A stretch of 64,000 nt of DNA from a virus, in IMG/VR virus record IMGVR_UViG_3300034520_000068, positions 1 through 64,000 of that record; one strand, 5' to 3'. The translations under genes were made by a program, and so were the position numbers. The notes under the pieces are model-generated. The model saw only the letters and a list, made by a program, of their open reading frames with translations, had not been told where the DNA came from and searched no databases. The number at the start of each line of letters is the position of its first letter. Within the stretch, counting starts at the first letter, position 1. Positions 8,712-25,199 of the stretch are shown here, piece after piece.

Positions 8712-10145
8712 TCACCTCCCGAATAAGTCTATAACTTTCTTATCTATTTCTTTTTGTTTGCCTTCAAGCATCTTGATTTTATTGTTGATAACTTCGCTGG
8801 AATCGTTGCTAAAACTTACCCTGACCGTATCAAGCGGCGGAGTTCCAACTGCGTTTTCAACTCCCATTACTTCCTGTGCTGCCTTATTATTATCAATCCA
8901 GTTCATGATTACTGCAATTGCATAGAATTTCTCTTTAAGCAATGCAACATTAATTTTGTCAAGTTCACTCTGCCAATCAACGACATTATGAGTGAATACA
9001 GGAATGGCTTGAATACCCTTCACTCTTAACCATAGTCGGGCTATTTCCTCAATCAGTCGCTTACTACCTCTTTGCAGGGAAAGAATACCCTGTACAAAAA
9101 TTTTCATTTCTACGCTAGACCAGGTCTCTGTCCGTCCTGAGCTTCTATTTTCAAAAATGCCAAGTTGCTTCAAGCCATTTAATGTCTGTATATCCGTTAA
9201 CTCATTTATAGCCCTGAAGTCAACACTTCTTGAAACATTGCTACCCTGTCCTTGATTTCTGTTCACATCATCAAAAGTAACTATATCAGAATCGGGGTGT
9301 ATGTTTTTTAAGGTATTAACGATATTGTCGTATTGTTCTTTAAGCCATGCTTGAAGCTTTGCGGCATCATTTTTTACATGAGCCGGACAGTATTTCATCA
9401 TTCGTTCAAGGTTGATTTGATAGAAGTCCCTTACATAGCCCTGATGATGTAGAACGGCATGTACATCATTAAAAACCTGCAACTGGGAGTCAATAGCCTG
9501 CAATGCAGGAGCCATAATTAAATTACCACGTGGGTCATTCCCATCGGGGTCTGTAGGCACTGCAAATATATTACCCTTACTCAAGTCTATTTTGCCAGAA
9601 TCAAAACCATATTGATACGGTATCCAAACTTTCTTACCATCTCGTTCTTCAAGTTCCCATGTTACGGTACGTGGGTCAATAGGATGGACTTCAACTATAT
9701 CTGTCCTATCTGCATTAACTTCAACCTCGCACATTTGAAGCCCATACAGGATACCGTTTTTATGGAATATATCAATCAAGCCATCGAGTCCCGAATTGCT
9801 GATAGAATTTATCCTTGCCGCAAACTCCCGCCATTGTTCCTCAACATCAGTCAATACAACGCCTTTGCTTCGTGTATTAATGCCGTAAAATTTCATCTGG
9901 TGCCCCTGATTTGCAAGCCTGATGAAATTCCATAGCGCCATAGAAGCATCAGGTGTCTTTTTGACTATAAACTCAATAGCATTGGCTTCATCTGAAATTC
10001 TGCGCAATTCATCAAGCAATTTTGCGCTTCTTGAACGATAAGGGGAAAGTATTGTCCTAATATTACCAGCAGCGGAAACTCGCCCGGTCGGTATGTTCCG
10101 AGGCTCATCCCTGGACCGTGCAAAAATTCTATTCCAAAACGCCAT
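8712..10145 (-). CDS. Portal protein
   Basis: 477 residues in the portal position between terminase-side genes and the protease. The N-terminus (MAFWNRIFARSRDEP) and the stretch with ELRRISDEANAIEFIVKKTPDASMALW match siphophage portals, as do the central FHKNGILYGL region and the C-terminal long helices ending in a charged coiled coil (KIKMLEGKQKEIDKKVIDLF). It forms the dodecameric ring through which DNA is packaged and ejected. Confidence 0.85.
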   Translation of the reverse strand: MAFWNRIFARSRDEPRNIPTGRVSAAGNIRTILSPYRSRSAKLLDELRRISDEANAIEFIVKKTPDASMALWNFIRLANQGHQMKFYGINTRSKGVVLTDVEEQWREFAARINSISNSGLDGLIDIFHKNGILYGLQMCEVEVNADRTDIVEVHPIDPRTVTWELEERDGKKVWIPYQYGFDSGKIDLSKGNIFAVPTDPDGNDPRGNLIMAPALQAIDSQLQVFNDVHAVLHHQGYVRDFYQINLERMMKYCPAHVKNDAAKLQAWLKEQYDNIVNTLKNIHPDSDIVTFDDVNRNQGQGSNVSRSVDFRAINELTDIQTLNGLKQLGIFENRSSGRTETWSSVEMKIFVQGILSLQRGSKRLIEEIARLWLRVKGIQAIPVFTHNVVDWQSELDKINVALLKEKFYAIAVIMNWIDNNKAAQEVMGVENAVGTPPLDTVRVSFSNDSSEVINNKIKMLEGKQKEIDKKVIDLFGR

Positions 10146-13675: not shown

Positions 13676-15256
13676 TTATGCTATCTTGTCAATTCCGCCA
13701 ATAAGCCCTACCCAGGGCAGCGCCATATCAGGCAACATAAAATCGGCAAAACAGAAATAGGCCGCACTGATATGGTCATCATGACCATCGTTGCTTCCGT
13801 TTTCATATTTTGTAGTTCCTGTGCTTCTTGTAATGCTGATATAGTCTTTGAATTGATTTTCAACTTCCTGCGACCACGGAATTTCGCAATATCTTTGCTC
13901 GATTATAACCGCAAGATTTTCAACAAGCCTTTCTTTGTTGTTTCCTTGTTCGTTTATCGGATTACATGGCACTCCACGCTTAGTTAATTGAGATTCGATT
14001 GTTTCACCAAGACCTGTTTTGCCAAAATTGCATGAAGCACCATTGTATTTTCTTGAATAATATGCAATTCTGTCCCATTGGCCGTCCCAGCTCAAGCCGG
14101 CCATCGTCTCTATTTTAACAACACGTCCTTTACTATTTCTAATCCATATAACAGGGTCGTCAACAGATTTGCCGGGGTCATATCCCATAGTGTATATTTC
14201 AAAAGGTTCCGGTTCGCTCCATGCATCTCTTTGCTCCTTCGGTAAATCCTCAAGTTTGACAAAACATCTGTCGATGTTCGGAAATACGGCATTGACGTTC
14301 GATATAAATTCTGCCAGATAATCCTGACGGTATCTTTTATCCGACATTCTTCGAATCAAATTCTCTTTATAAGTTCTACCGTTTTTGGTTATCTGTTCAC
14401 CACGTGCAGCCATAAGCGGATTGTCCCATGTGGTGAATCGCCAGCTTTCCCAATCGGGGTCCCAATCTGAAGTTCCTTTTTGTCCCCATTTCCACATCTT
14501 ATAAAAGTAATTCATGCCTAAAGGGGAGGAATTGATTAATGCAACACCGCCTTTGCCGTTTAATCCACGCCCCGGAGAATTCAAACGGCCTTCAAGATTC
14601 GCCCATACATCTTCGAGGTCGGCTATCCTTGCGGCTTCAGTAATAGTTACAATATCAAGGCCAACACCGACCAATGCTTCGGGGTCATATGCTGAATGTA
14701 CTTCTATTATACCGCCGTTTATCGTTTCAATCGTTCTTGTGGTCTTTGATACGTCAACAACGATTTCCTTCGGCAAATTGCCAAGTAATTCACGCCAATT
14801 CTGGTTTGCGATTCTGTCTGTAGGAGCAATTATCCACCATAAGGCATGAGGAATAATGCTTGACGGTCTGTCCTCGTTTAAGCAGGCAATAAAGTACTTT
14901 ATGCCTTCCATGATGGAGCATCTATCCTTGCCCCACCTGATTCCCGCCGCAATAACCTTAAATCTTGCATTGCTCTCATGCACCAATTTTTGTCCCCAAT
15001 GCGGCTCATATTCGACGGCAATGTTCAGACCGCCTCTGACATTTTGCATACGGCATTGAGGACAAGTGCGAAAGGAAGTATAAGCATCATACTCAGGGCG
15101 GTATACCTGCGAGAACGGTTTTCCACATTGTTGACAAATAGAAACTCTATCGCTCGTTGAATGTTTTATAAGCTTTTCATTTTTTTGAGTGATTATGCTT
15201 ACAGAACCGCCTTTTCGAGGCATAAGACCACCACCAATAAAAACCCCGTCATTCAT
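13676..15256 (-). CDS. terL: Terminase large subunit
   Basis: 526 residues. An N-terminal zinc ribbon (C41, C44, C65, C68) precedes the ATPase. Walker A is GIRWGKDR (about 105-112) and Walker B is LDIVTITEA (200-208). The RNase-H-like nuclease begins at MGYDPG (D360) and ends with the acidic NDGHDDH cluster near residue 495. It cuts and pumps DNA into proheads through the portal. The ATG at 15256 overlaps the upstream stop as ATGA; ATG 15223, with GGTGGTGG upstream, is an equally good start. The added zinc ribbon is less common. Confidence 0.92.
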   Translation of the reverse strand: MNDGVFIGGGLMPRKGGSVSIITQKNEKLIKHSTSDRVSICQQCGKPFSQVYRPEYDAYTSFRTCPQCRMQNVRGGLNIAVEYEPHWGQKLVHESNARFKVIAAGIRWGKDRCSIMEGIKYFIACLNEDRPSSIIPHALWWIIAPTDRIANQNWRELLGNLPKEIVVDVSKTTRTIETINGGIIEVHSAYDPEALVGVGLDIVTITEAARIADLEDVWANLEGRLNSPGRGLNGKGGVALINSSPLGMNYFYKMWKWGQKGTSDWDPDWESWRFTTWDNPLMAARGEQITKNGRTYKENLIRRMSDKRYRQDYLAEFISNVNAVFPNIDRCFVKLEDLPKEQRDAWSEPEPFEIYTMGYDPGKSVDDPVIWIRNSKGRVVKIETMAGLSWDGQWDRIAYYSRKYNGASCNFGKTGLGETIESQLTKRGVPCNPINEQGNNKERLVENLAVIIEQRYCEIPWSQEVENQFKDYISITRSTGTTKYENGSNDGHDDHISAAYFCFADFMLPDMALPWVGLIGGIDKIA

Positions 15257-15414
15257 TCCTCGTAATATAATATTTGTCCGCATTTAGGGCAAGCTACAAC
15301 ATCATGGTAACTTCCATCATCTTCAACCACAATGTCATAATCAAGTTCATCATTAGGACACCTACAATATGGGCAATTATCATGGAAATTCCATAATAAA
15401 TATTTATCATCCAT
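15253..15414 (-). CDS. Small zinc-ribbon protein upstream of terminase
   Basis: 53 residues with CPYCRC near residue 15 and CPKCGQ near residue 42, a four-Cys zinc ribbon. It ends in an ATGA overlap with the terminase gene, so the two are translationally coupled. The ribosome site (GGATGTGAG) is moderate. Zinc-ribbon accessory proteins next to TerL may contact DNA or the packaging motor, but no function is proven. Confidence 0.7.
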   Translation of the reverse strand: MDDKYLLWNFHDNCPYCRCPNDELDYDIVVEDDGSYHDVVACPKCGQILYYEE

Positions 15415-18405: not shown

Positions 18406-18479
18406 TGGCTTCAGGGGAAGGAATCGAACCTCCATCGCAAGGTCCAAAGCCTTGTGTCCTACCTTTAGACGACCCTGAA
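18406..18479 (-). tRNA. tRNA-Gln(UUG)
   Basis: Complete cloverleaf: 7-bp acceptor (TTCAGGG with CCCTGAA), D-arm GTCT/GGAC, anticodon stem CAAGG/CCTTG with loop CTTTGGA giving anticodon TTG, five-base variable loop, T-arm GGAGG-TTCGATT-CCTTC, discriminator G and encoded CCA. It lies inside the late operon between two genes. Phage tRNAs usually offset codon-use differences or host tRNA cleavage. The anticodon reads CAA, and CAG by wobble. Confidence 0.96.
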
Positions 18480-19507: not shown

Positions 19508-19771
19508 TTACTTATTTACAACAGCCCTAAAATTTCCTCTGCGAATACTGGCCGCATATTCCGCATATTCTTTTTTTGCGGTTTCCGATGGCTTACAGAT
19601 TAGATATGAGCCGTCATTATTCTTGTTGAAATTCTCTGGCTTCATTTCTTCATCGTATGTTTGAATATACATATTCACAGTGCCGATTACGATTTTGTTT
19701 TCATATATGTAATTTACGAAAGCATCGGCAATTCTTTCCGGGGTCAAGCCTTTGTCGAATTTAATTCTCAT
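19508..19771 (-). CDS. Hypothetical protein
   Basis: 87 residues, starting inside the end of the upstream winged-helix gene (11-base overlap). Mixed alpha/beta with a helical C-terminus (AKKEYAEYAASIRRGNF). No family recognised. Confidence 0.55.
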   Translation of the reverse strand: MRIKFDKGLTPERIADAFVNYIYENKIVIGTVNMYIQTYDEEMKPENFNKNNDGSYLICKPSETAKKEYAEYAASIRRGNFRAVVNK

Positions 19772-20327
19772 GTGGAGCGACCCCTTTCCGGATAAATTTA
19801 GGATTGAAAAAGTAAGCCTTTTTTTTGTTGTTATAATGCATTATACCTAGTTCGGCAAGCTCTTTGATGATTGAAGTCACCTTCGATTCGCTAACATTTA
19901 AAAAAGCCGACAACATGCTTTTTGTCATCGACTTTCCGTCCCGCTTCCTGTAAATTCTGCCGGTATTCCATTCTATGTAGTCAACCAGTTTTAAAATCAT
20001 TCCTGCCGCATCAAGCGAAATGCTTTTTTTGTTCAATTCTTTTATAGCATTAGGCATTAGCATGACATATAAAGGCTTTCCGCCAGTCCCTTTGGGTTTT
20101 ACAACTTCGAATATATATTCCTCAGTATTTGCGGCATTTTCAACACATTTAACTCTATATTTTTTAGCCATTTTCTTACTGTTCCACAACGCATAAATGG
20201 GCTTTTCGCACTCAGGCAAGGCCACAATTATAAACTCCGAATTACCAGAACGCTCCCGACCCAAAATCAGTTCATCTTTTACTACATTACGGAATCCGCT
20301 TAGATATTCCATCATTTCTTTTTTCAT
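19761..20327 (-). CDS. Winged-helix protein (RepL-like / MarR-like)
   Basis: 188 residues. The C-terminal ~80 residues (DYIEWNTGRIYRKRDGKSMTK, then LSAFLNVSESKVTSIIKELAELGIM and YFFNPKFIRKG) form a winged helix with the wing and final strand typical of RepL-like plasmid/phage proteins and related regulators. The N-terminal half is beta-rich. It is the first protein gene of the late transcript, so it may control late genes. Replication initiation is an alternative from RepL similarity. Confidence 0.65.
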   Translation of the reverse strand: MKKEMMEYLSGFRNVVKDELILGRERSGNSEFIIVALPECEKPIYALWNSKKMAKKYRVKCVENAANTEEYIFEVVKPKGTGGKPLYVMLMPNAIKELNKKSISLDAAGMILKLVDYIEWNTGRIYRKRDGKSMTKSMLSAFLNVSESKVTSIIKELAELGIMHYNNKKKAYFFNPKFIRKGVAPHEN

Positions 20328-20502: not shown

Positions 20503-20542
20503 GCCCAAAAACAAAAAACGCCTTCGGTTTCACCAAAGACGT
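20503..20542 (-). terminator. Rho-independent terminator of the large structured RNA
   Basis: A ten-pair hairpin with two G-U pairs (20518-20527 with 20533-20542), followed in the minus-strand transcript by TTTTTTGTTTTT. It ends the non-coding transcript 190 bases before the first late protein gene. Read-through would be needed if the late genes share the upstream promoter. Confidence 0.75.
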
Positions 20543-20952
20543 TTTGGATATGCTCAAGCCCCACATATTCGTGCTATGCGGGGCGTGCTTGTAAAATGTC
20601 CTGCCCTGGTCCGCTTCACATGGATTCGTACCCATGCATCGAGAGGCGTGGCAGGCTCTGTTTTAAAGCCGCCCTATATGTCATCGCCTGTGTCATGGAT
20701 TCACAGCACTCATATAGTGGCGGCCAACCCGTATGGGTTAATTCTCTGGAGCTGCGGGGCTTTCGCCAGCGGTCGCTAAGGGCAACCTGCCGCAGCCTGG
20801 AAAGTATCTGCATTGGCGGGCCGGTCCTGCCCCGGCTCCCGTCGTGCCCCTCTAACCCGATATTAGTCAACGGTTCTTAGCGTCGGGTGAGGCAAGTTTC
20901 CTTTTTTTTCGCGCTGTGCGTGTCATCTCGCCACGCCGCCGCCAACTTATTT

Positions 20953-21087
20953 GCATAGGGGCAGGGACTCGAACCCTGCAATACTACCCTCACGGAATAG
21001 TCACCGAATACTTTGGAGTCGCAATCAGCCTCAGCCCATTGCGTTTAACCCATTTCTAGGGTGCGTATGCTTTCCGCCACCCTATGC
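20953..21087 (-). ncRNA. tRNA-like 5' domain of the large RNA
   Basis: A closed domain of 135 nt with an 8-pair acceptor-like stem, a D-arm-like TGGCGGAAAGC...CGC segment as in tRNA-Leu, a seven-base anticodon-like loop (TAGAAAT), a large extra region with a CGCAAT/ATTGCG hairpin, and a T-arm-like hairpin whose loop is TTCGAGT. It lacks G18G19 in the D-loop, U33 and an encoded CCA, and is too long for a tRNA. It is best read as a tRNA mimic or a decayed tRNA built into the RNA. Confidence 0.6.
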
Positions 21088-21105
21088 ATCGCCGCCTATC
21101 GGCTC

Positions 21106-21134
21106 ATTATAATATTACCACATATCATCGTGCA
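21106..21134 (-). promoter_or_regulatory. Promoter of the large structured RNA / late region
   Basis: A perfect TATAAT on the minus strand (21111-21106) with start expected near 21099, just before the tRNA-like domain. The -35 position (21134-21129) reads TGCACG, a poor match, and coincides with the first CGTGCA repeat. A perfect -10 with a poor -35 covered by an activator-like site suggests activator-dependent late transcription. Confidence 0.6.
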
Positions 21135-21218
21135 TGTGCGCATGAAAATCGTGCAAAAATGAATGATTTTCGTACAAATATCGTGCAAAAACGTGCAGAA
21201 ATGATTAAGTTTCGTGCA
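21129..21218. repeat. Helically phased CGTGCA array
   Basis: Six same-orientation copies start at 21129, 21150, 21171 (CGTACA), 21182, 21192 and 21213. Spacings are 21, 21, 11, 10 and 21 bases, all multiples of about 10.5, so all sites lie on one face of the helix. The array abuts the structured-RNA promoter. Likely a cooperative protein-binding array. Confidence 0.75.
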
Positions 21219-21389
21219 AGGGAGAAAATGACAAAGGGAGAAGCAAAAGCAAAAACAGAATATCTGTGGCTATGAAACAGATTTTGGCGTAAGTTTTCGG
21301 CTAAAATCGGCCTTGGTACGGGGAAATTTTTGGGAGGGGGAACTCTCCCGCCTGCACGATGACCCTCCCCCCACGGGTGCCGCCCGACC

Positions 21390-22753: not shown

Positions 22754-22766
22754 CTCCGGCATCTCT

Positions 22767-22822
22767 AATGCAGCCTGCCGAATTCGGCAGCCGGTCCCAA
22801 GCCCGGATAAAGGCAGAGGGGA
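22767..22822 (+). promoter_or_regulatory. Structured leader element, copy 2
   Basis: AATGCAGCC, then the perfect hairpin CTGCCGAATTCGGCAG, then GTCCCAAGCC and GCAGAGGGG. Matches copy 1 at 22454-22502 in block order, with a longer hairpin. Confidence 0.5.
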
Positions 22823-22845
22823 GAAAAGAACAAGGGGGCTTAAAG

Positions 22846-24357: not shown

Positions 24358-25118
24358 AAAAATATACAAAAGATGCGCTAGTCGAGCAAATACGAAAATC
24401 TATACAATCTCTGGGCTATGTGCCCTCGTTGCCAGAATACAACAAACTCCGATTGAAACCCACGGAGCAAACCATCAGAAGACACGGCCTGACTTGGAGC
24501 GAAGCTATGAACCTTGCCGGATATACCACTCGAAAAGTTGATTTTCTATCGAAAGAAGAAATGCTTGAACAGTTGAAAAAGTATATCTCTATACATGGTC
24601 CTGTAATATCGTATCAAGACTATTTGCGTGACTATCAAAGATATGACCTACCAAGCCCATCTACATTGATTCGTCAATTCGGTTCTTTCAAAAAAGCCAT
24701 TGAGGAGGCCGGGGGAAGTACTCCCTACCGTATGATTGAATACACAAAAGAGGATTTGATATTTTTTCTGCAAGAATACTATCGAAAATACAAGGTTGCA
24801 CCAACTATGCCCGAATGGGAAGTATATTCGGAGAAAAACAATCTCCCTGGAAAAAGCGCATTCCAAAACATTTTCAAAAGGTGGAATCTAGCATTGGAAG
24901 CCGCCGGATTGGTGCCGAATTTGCGAAGGACTCCAAAATGGGATAGAGAGAAAATCCTTTCAGCACTACGTGAAAACTTTTCTACAATGCCAGGAAGGAG
25001 GGAGTACGAAAAATTGAGCAAAGGTAATAAAGATATCCCTTCTTCCACCACAGTTGTCCGGTTTTTTGGCTCCCTTGCAAATGCGTTTATGCAAGCATTT
25101 GCAAAAGATAGCCAGTAG
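24354..25118 (+). CDS. Tandem HNH-associated repeat protein (DNA-binding)
   Basis: 254 residues made of four imperfect ~60-residue repeats. Each starts like (T/S)KE(E/D)xLxxxL, has a PSxxEY/D step and ends in T(V/L)xRxFG(S/T)(F/W)xxAxxxAG. This matches the repeat found beside HNH or homing endonuclease domains, thought to bind DNA. No nuclease motif is left. It overlaps the previous gene by 4 bases (ATGA). A stand-alone repeat array could act as a site-specific DNA-binding regulator. Confidence 0.7.
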   Translation: MKKYTKDALVEQIRKSIQSLGYVPSLPEYNKLRLKPTEQTIRRHGLTWSEAMNLAGYTTRKVDFLSKEEMLEQLKKYISIHGPVISYQDYLRDYQRYDLPSPSTLIRQFGSFKKAIEEAGGSTPYRMIEYTKEDLIFFLQEYYRKYKVAPTMPEWEVYSEKNNLPGKSAFQNIFKRWNLALEAAGLVPNLRRTPKWDREKILSALRENFSTMPGRREYEKLSKGNKDIPSSTTVVRFFGSLANAFMQAFAKDSQ

Positions 25119-25146
25119 GGCAAGGCCAGCACGGTGCAAGCCCGTG

Positions 25147-25168
25147 CCGCAGGGTTTTATCCCTGCGC
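25147..25168 (+). promoter_or_regulatory. UUUUAU-loop hairpin in leader
   Basis: CGCAGGG and CCCTGCG form a seven-pair stem with loop TTTTAT, about 30 bases before the 25200 start. Related TTTAT-containing hairpins occur in later leaders of this operon. Confidence 0.5.
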
Positions 25169-25199
25169 CGCTCAACCTACAACATAAGGAGGAATAAAA

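Follow-up and report, generated by a model that had tools for sequence, protein, structure and literature searches.

A tRNA-Leu-like domain in a structured late-region phage RNA is part of an apparently undescribed RNA family that is widespread in phages

The window analyzed here is a stretch of 64,000 nucleotides of viral DNA (IMG/VR record IMGVR_UViG_3300034520_000068, positions 1 to 64,000). The strand that bears the terminase large subunit (TerL) and portal genes begins with a non-coding unit of ~585 nt, located on the minus strand at the head of the late genes (Table 1). An initial annotation had proposed a structured RNA of about 590 nt at this place, and its coordinates were right: the minus strand folded with a minimum free energy (MFE) of -236.6 kcal/mol, corresponding to z = -3.9 with 20 shuffles and z = -4.4 with 100 shuffles, against z = -1.5 for the plus strand. 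The annotation had also noted the lack of a credible protein gene. We searched the small open reading frames across the region against PHROG with zero matches, and the protein-coding reading was dropped for this reason. The GC content was 0.48-0.58 in the RNA versus 0.38-0.42 over most of the downstream flank, as the annotation had observed, and the TATAAT box and intrinsic terminator that it named as bounds both lie on the minus strand. No -35 element was matched before the TATAAT box; short direct repeats are found just upstream instead. Comparison of the RNA with Rfam 15 gave no family at the gathering threshold and none that was plausible at E up to 10, and blastn against phages and plasmids gave no match.

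Table 1. Positions of the structured RNA, its parts and the late-operon features of the window.
Feature	Position	Strand	Basis and details
Whole structured non-coding RNA	20515..21100	-	fold z; no Rfam match; no PHROG match
Putative late promoter	21100..21260	-	TATAAT after three TTGCACGAT-type repeats, 31-32 bp apart
TATAAT box of the RNA	21111-21106	-	sequence
tRNA-like domain (TLD), 133 nt	20954..21086	-	model R1 match; fold z -3.2
Acceptor stem, 5' strand CATAGGG	21080..21086	-	partner CCCTATG at 20954-20960; 7/7 pairs; family covariation
U8-G9 and tRNA-Leu-type D arm TGGCGGAAAGCATACGC	21063..21079	-	3-bp D stem
83-nt insert in place of anticodon and variable arms	20980..21062	-	
T arm, 6-bp stem GCAGGG/CCCTGC	20961..20979	-	loop TTCGAGT
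Acceptor stem, 3' strand	20954..20960	-	no CCA after it
3' structured domain, about 405 nt	20546..20951	-	fold z
Intrinsic terminator	20545-20515	-	14 pairs, then TTGTTTTTGG; terminator scan
HTH-like gene of 188 aa, first of the late genes past the RNA	19761..20327	-	Fe_dep_repress, just below Pfam cut-off
tRNA-Gln (TTG)	18406-18479	-	late operon
Stand-alone RF-1/GGQ-domain protein, 120 aa	17608-17970	-	same late operon as the RNA
Terminase large subunit	13676..15283	-	same strand, downstream of the RNA
Portal	8712-10145	-	downstream of the RNA

The first ~135 nt of the RNA fold like tRNA-Leu with the decoding arm exchanged for other structure, and we refer to this part as the tRNA-like domain (TLD). 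A tRNA-like domain in a large structured RNA that heads the late transcript and runs toward the packaging genes had been proposed before, and this arrangement was recovered. The acceptor-like stem of eight pairs (GCATAGGG/CCCTATGC) described on that occasion is real, as seen from covariation among homologues, and with the flanks the acceptor stem can grow to 9 bp (21088-20952). The D arm matches tRNA-Leu (GGTGGCGGAA...ACGC), and its loop lacks the GG that most family members have. Two hairpins (ACCC/GGGT and CGCAAT/ATTGCG) are predicted in the insert; a search for a pseudoknot there yielded nothing convincing, only a weak 5-bp helix. Folded alone, the TLD gave z values of -3.0 to -3.2. ARAGORN, run on the window, reported no tRNA at the TLD and no tmRNA, and the insert contains no valid anticodon loop. 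An intron-bearing tRNA-Leu was ruled out from the sequences: the insert is not bordered by the two halves of an anticodon arm, and its excision would thus leave no anticodon.

Relatives of the window phage were taken to be its terminase relatives in IMG/VR, and TLDs were present at three of these loci: L001, L003 (a Ruminiclostridium hungatei prophage, L017), and L004. A one-base offset in the TLDs of the window and of these three loci gives a T stem of 6 bp and an acceptor/T stack of 13 bp. From the four phages we derived a search pattern (GGTGGCGGAA, 65-95 nt, TGCANGGTNNNANTCC) that leaves free nucleotides 1-5 of the 5' acceptor strand, the 3' strand of the acceptor in full, the 3' side of the D stem, and most of the 3' T strand. 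The pattern matched at least 119 viral contigs, while a control with reversed halves matched 0. A single match was obtained in 391 Clostridia genomes, the R. hungatei prophage (control 0). Among the 127 matches listed, 94 had all seven acceptor pairs and the full 6-bp T stem in one exact register, and a further 18 had six of seven acceptor pairs. In an alignment of 75 TLD copies, 98.5% of the cells were paired compared to 83.6% in shuffled alignments, and the acceptor and T stems contained 177 double-changed cells (44.8 +/- 5.9 when shuffled). When partners were slid by one column, pairing fell to about 40%. The tRNA-like fold of the TLD family is thus secured by covariation.

A covariance model, R1, was built from the 75 aligned copies, with the window, L001, L003, and L004 kept outside the training set. 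These four scored 46.5 bits (E 4.1e-10), 48.7, 85.2, and 56.8 bits, respectively. A scan of 398 Bacillota genomes with R1 returned 11 genomes at E <= 1e-8. One was the known R. hungatei copy, two (L164 and L165) were ordinary tRNA-Leu with a 12-bp stack followed by ACCA, and eight were not read as tRNA by ARAGORN. Half of these eight (L160, L162, L163, and L166) parsed with a 13-bp stack; the other four failed the strict rule. Some parsed matches had T stems outside the search pattern (GTGAGG/CCTCAC and GCCGGG/CCCGGC), with 6 bp kept. Because ordinary tRNA-Leu genes reach ~47 bits with R1 in some genomes, the score of the window TLD is not by itself the argument. The 13-bp stack, the length of 133 nt, and the missing anticodon arm do set the window TLD apart from tRNA-Leu. 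Measured against the family definition, it has 7/7 acceptor and 6/6 T-stem pairs and an 83-nt insert in addition to its R1 score, and we regard it as a diverged member of the phage TLD family. We have high confidence in the anatomy of the window RNA and in the family membership of its TLD.

Rfam 15 has no entry for the TLD family, and the genome annotations of Paenibacillus phage Pd_22F and Leuconostoc phage Ln-9 do not mark their TLDs. Our literature search, which covered few subscription journals, found no description of the family. It is plainly derived from tRNA-Leu, and what appears to be new is the RNA family: these are widespread and apparently undescribed phage RNAs. The new class that the initial annotation had raised as one option is probably right.

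The acceptor/T stack comprised 7+6 = 13 bp in the window TLD, as in almost every other member of the family, compared to 7+5 in the real tRNA-Leu of the Bacillota scan. TGCAAAT was the predominant T loop, and about 80% of T loops had G in place of U at position 55. The base after the acceptor was A in 48%, C in 22%, U in 19%, and G in 11% of copies, i.e., there is no fixed discriminator, and CCA followed only sporadically (8/104). Acceptor pair 3 was UA, GC, AU, or CG, and GU in 1/103, so the family does not carry the G3-U70 identity of alanine. The inserts were hypervariable: the 105 compared grouped into 15 small clusters, with 60 left as singletons. Helices ending beside the T stem were enriched in them (strong cases 33% vs. 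3%), and in one insert cluster compensatory changes back an H-type pseudoknot (9 double-changed pairs vs. 3.7 +/- 1.4). The insert appears often to be pseudoknotted, clearly so in several insert families. Two loci, L034 and L060, have identical inserts with compensated acceptors in different flanks, and the TLD itself is therefore the unit. The TLD is a solitary intergenic element in most phages and lacks its own promoter there. Tandem TLDs with different inserts occurred in L048 (three) and in L110, L121, L082, and L071 (two each), and TLDs lie beside tRNAs in L105 and L121. Such tandem sets in one phage resemble a small tRNA array. An antisense guide function was rejected, given that complementarity between an insert and its own locus (9.43 nt) was no better than after shuffling (9.27 nt).

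The TLD shares with tRNA-Leu the 7-bp acceptor, U8, the D arm TGGCGGAATAGGTAGACGC, and a 7-nt T loop with U54 and A58. It differs in stacking 13 bp, by means of the 6-bp T stem, where tRNA-Leu stacks 12; in having an insert of 50-100 nt instead of the anticodon and variable arms; and in its G55 in ~80% of T loops, its lack of CCA, and its lack of a fixed discriminator. The TLD escapes detection by ARAGORN and by the Rfam tRNA model. Since it keeps the elbow and lacks the anticodon, the CCA end, and the 12-bp stack, the TLD should not serve translation as a tRNA. It resembles the tRNA-like domain of tmRNA (including the DS6A form that consists of this domain only) in lacking an anticodon, in the pseudoknots between the D and T arms seen in several insert families, and in being phage-encoded. 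Unlike tmRNA, it has a real D stem and a tRNA-Leu-type D arm and lacks the alanine-type G3-U70; no tag reading frame was recognized, and neither the Rfam tmRNA model nor the tmRNA search of ARAGORN matched. The tRNA-like structures of plant viruses are likewise pseudoknot-containing tRNA mimics. Their place is the 3' terminus of RNA genomes, and most of them are aminoacylated, whereas the TLD lies inside DNA-phage transcripts and has no CCA.

The remainder of the window RNA, the 3' structured domain, gave z values of -3.1 to -4.2 on the minus strand and -1.0 on the plus strand. A helix of 13 pairs (20668-20680 with 20711-20724) is predicted in both the MFE and the centroid structures. No homologue of the domain was found by blastn against phages, plasmids, or the fetched loci. 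A 17-mer of the domain led to five contigs with weak alignment over 27-43 nt, which we judged to be due to chance. The 13-pair helix is accordingly a thermodynamic prediction, and a joint function of the 3' domain and the TLD would be conjectural.

Across phages, the TLD family sits mostly between late regulators and the terminase/portal genes. Proteins downstream of TLDs were rich in terminase small and large subunits, and those upstream in transcription regulators and sigma factors. A terminase or portal gene was the largest gene within 4.5 kb downstream of the TLD in up to ~25 of 49 loci (a figure from family tallies in which overlaps were not resolved), compared to 2 of 28 loci upstream. 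In Pd_22F the TLD precedes HicBA, HNH, TerS, TerL, and portal, and in Ln-9 (KM262192) it is located at 157-271 on the minus strand, 157-271 nt from the physical genome end. These placements would fit an RNA for packaging or late assembly: the TLD, or else the RNA in full, would work together with terminase/portal in the manner of phi29 prohead RNA, or would mark where packaging starts near cos. However, the TLD is found with several unrelated terminase Pfam families, the site is also common for tRNAs and other accessory genes, and a motor-bound RNA is not expected to vary so much and yet keep a tRNA elbow. Some TLDs occur within clusters of tRNAs or as tandem copies whose inserts differ, so the site before the terminase may simply be convenient for small-RNA genes. 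We consider a packaging RNA, a role at which the initial annotation had hinted along with a virion role, unlikely. The prohead RNA (pRNA) of phi29 is a comparable case in that it is a phage RNA of ~120 nt encoded near late/packaging functions; the TLD differs in being found with many unrelated terminases, and the phi29 pRNA has, to our knowledge, no tRNA-like domain.

The nearness of the Ln-9 TLD to the end of a linear genome is a possible link to the cos region. The RF-1/GGQ protein in the late operon of the window is of release-factor or ribosome-rescue type, and no relatives of it were found in the fetched loci. Related phages also have a tRNA in the region where the window has its tRNA-Gln (tRNA-Ser at 4915-5002 in L006 and tRNA-Thr at 963-1037 in L005).

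The promoter repeats of the window lie at 21134-21219. In L001 (2488-2582), L006 (2335-2422), and L087 (1172-1212), the last being a locus with an unrelated terminase, 11-bp-phased repeats are followed by a TATAAT-like box, and L004 has repeats with 32-bp spacing in the equivalent place. Phasing by ~11 bp (or about three turns) suggests that an activator binds along a single face of the DNA. A terminator follows shortly after the TATAAT-like box in L004 and L006. The window RNA fills the leader slot seen in these relatives and is therefore expected to be a separate late transcript of ~585 nt, which we infer to run from an activator-type late promoter to the intrinsic terminator. The order of promoter, leader, terminator, and late genes, with the TLD at the 5' end of the transcript and with leader terminators also in L004 and L006, is consistent with a regulator of the late leader that mediates antitermination or attenuation past the terminator, in the manner of put or of lambda 6S/tR'. 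Against such a regulator, the TLD usually follows a gene: a general promoter just upstream of TLDs was tried and rejected, being found in 23/100 cases with 21 expected. Moreover, in L001, L003, and L004 the TLD is downstream of the promoter-proximal leader. A leader regulator is accordingly quite unlikely.

Other non-coding elements were recorded in these genomes. Directly 5' of the TLD, L001 (3374-3565) and L003 (5001-5191) share a structured-looking module that is 91% identical, the 5' part of which is also present in L142 (~3962-3894, minus strand), a prophage of the same order without a TLD. Within this part of the operon, large non-coding regions adjoin a TLD or a tRNA in L004 (7166-7733), L092 (3899-4297), and L005 (576-960), those of L004 and L092 being homologous over about 400 nt. 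The early region of the window contains a type-P1 twister ribozyme (22762-22824, plus strand) and a twister-sister ribozyme (25113-25184, plus strand), both above the Rfam gathering threshold. A twister-P5 was found in L003 (655-719, minus strand) and a sub-threshold hammerhead in L001 (1025-1081, minus strand).

Improbable, in our estimate, is that the TLD is a 5' stability or processing module and no more, with a cut by RNase P or RNase Z defining the ends of neighboring RNAs as in MALAT1/mascRNA. The tRNA-like acceptor/T geometry, the TLDs among real tRNAs, and the intercistronic site, with a ribosome-binding site close downstream in 29/100 cases against 16.5 expected, speak for this. It leaves the hypervariable pseudoknotted insert unexplained, though, and RNase P should be hindered by the 13-bp stack and by acceptor stems that reach into the flanks (window, L001/L003).

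Highly improbable is an ornate cage RNA like GOLLD or ROOL with the TLD as tRNA cargo or linker, for which similar size, phage origin, nearness to tRNAs or tRNA-like elements, the other structured-looking non-coding regions by a TLD or tRNA (L004/L092, L001/L003, L005), and the tRNAs sometimes held in GOLLD linkers (PMC12286853) can be cited: the membership in GOLLD or ROOL considered in the initial annotation is excluded at the model level, neither covariance model matching at E values as high as 10, homologues of the 3' domain were not found in the sequences searched, and only the TLD, not the large part of the RNA, is conserved elsewhere.

Our best explanation is that the window RNA is a late leader RNA whose 5' TLD, a member of the TLD family, acts as a decoy or scaffold by mimicking tRNA. 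Taken as a whole, we give this explanation about an even chance; the decoy or scaffold mechanism of the TLD, considered for itself, is held more tentatively. The window RNA would be made late, from a start near 21100 to the terminator that closely precedes the first late gene, and the TLD would form the 5' head of this larger structured RNA. As a stable mimic of tRNA, the TLD would be bound by a factor recognizing the tRNA elbow and the acceptor/T stack; candidate partners are the machineries of tRNA processing, ribosome rescue, or tRNA targeting. Since normal charging and decoding are impossible for it, its role would be that of a decoy or scaffold, with partner specificity supplied by the insert. 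The combination of an unchanging scaffold with a structured, hypervariable arm, found in sets in some phages, is in keeping with a decoy or scaffold directed at factors that bind tRNA. There is a precedent in mycobacteriophage DS6A, which encodes a tmRNA-type tRNA-like domain without the coding part, and an RNA consisting only of such a domain has been shown to inhibit tmRNA, perhaps by titrating SmpB (PMC4131195, PMC11915505). The DS6A domain is of the tmRNA type, whereas the window family is of the tRNA-Leu type.

In the reading of the RNAs as a new class, the window RNA would be the version in which the TLD platform heads a larger ornate RNA. Possibly, the class combines an unvarying platform derived from tRNA-Leu with a quickly diversifying pseudoknotted effector, at times present in tandem sets, and is made late and directed against host translation, ribosome rescue, or tRNA-targeting immunity; our confidence in this falls somewhat short of even. 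As the fold is secured by covariation, the function of the TLD is directly testable in Pd_22F, Ln-9, and the R. hungatei prophage. With more than 100 viral contigs and ~2% of the sampled Bacillota genomes, the TLDs would be among the more widespread undescribed phage RNAs, and their unchanging tRNA scaffold and hypervariable arm suggest an arms race against a host system that binds tRNA.
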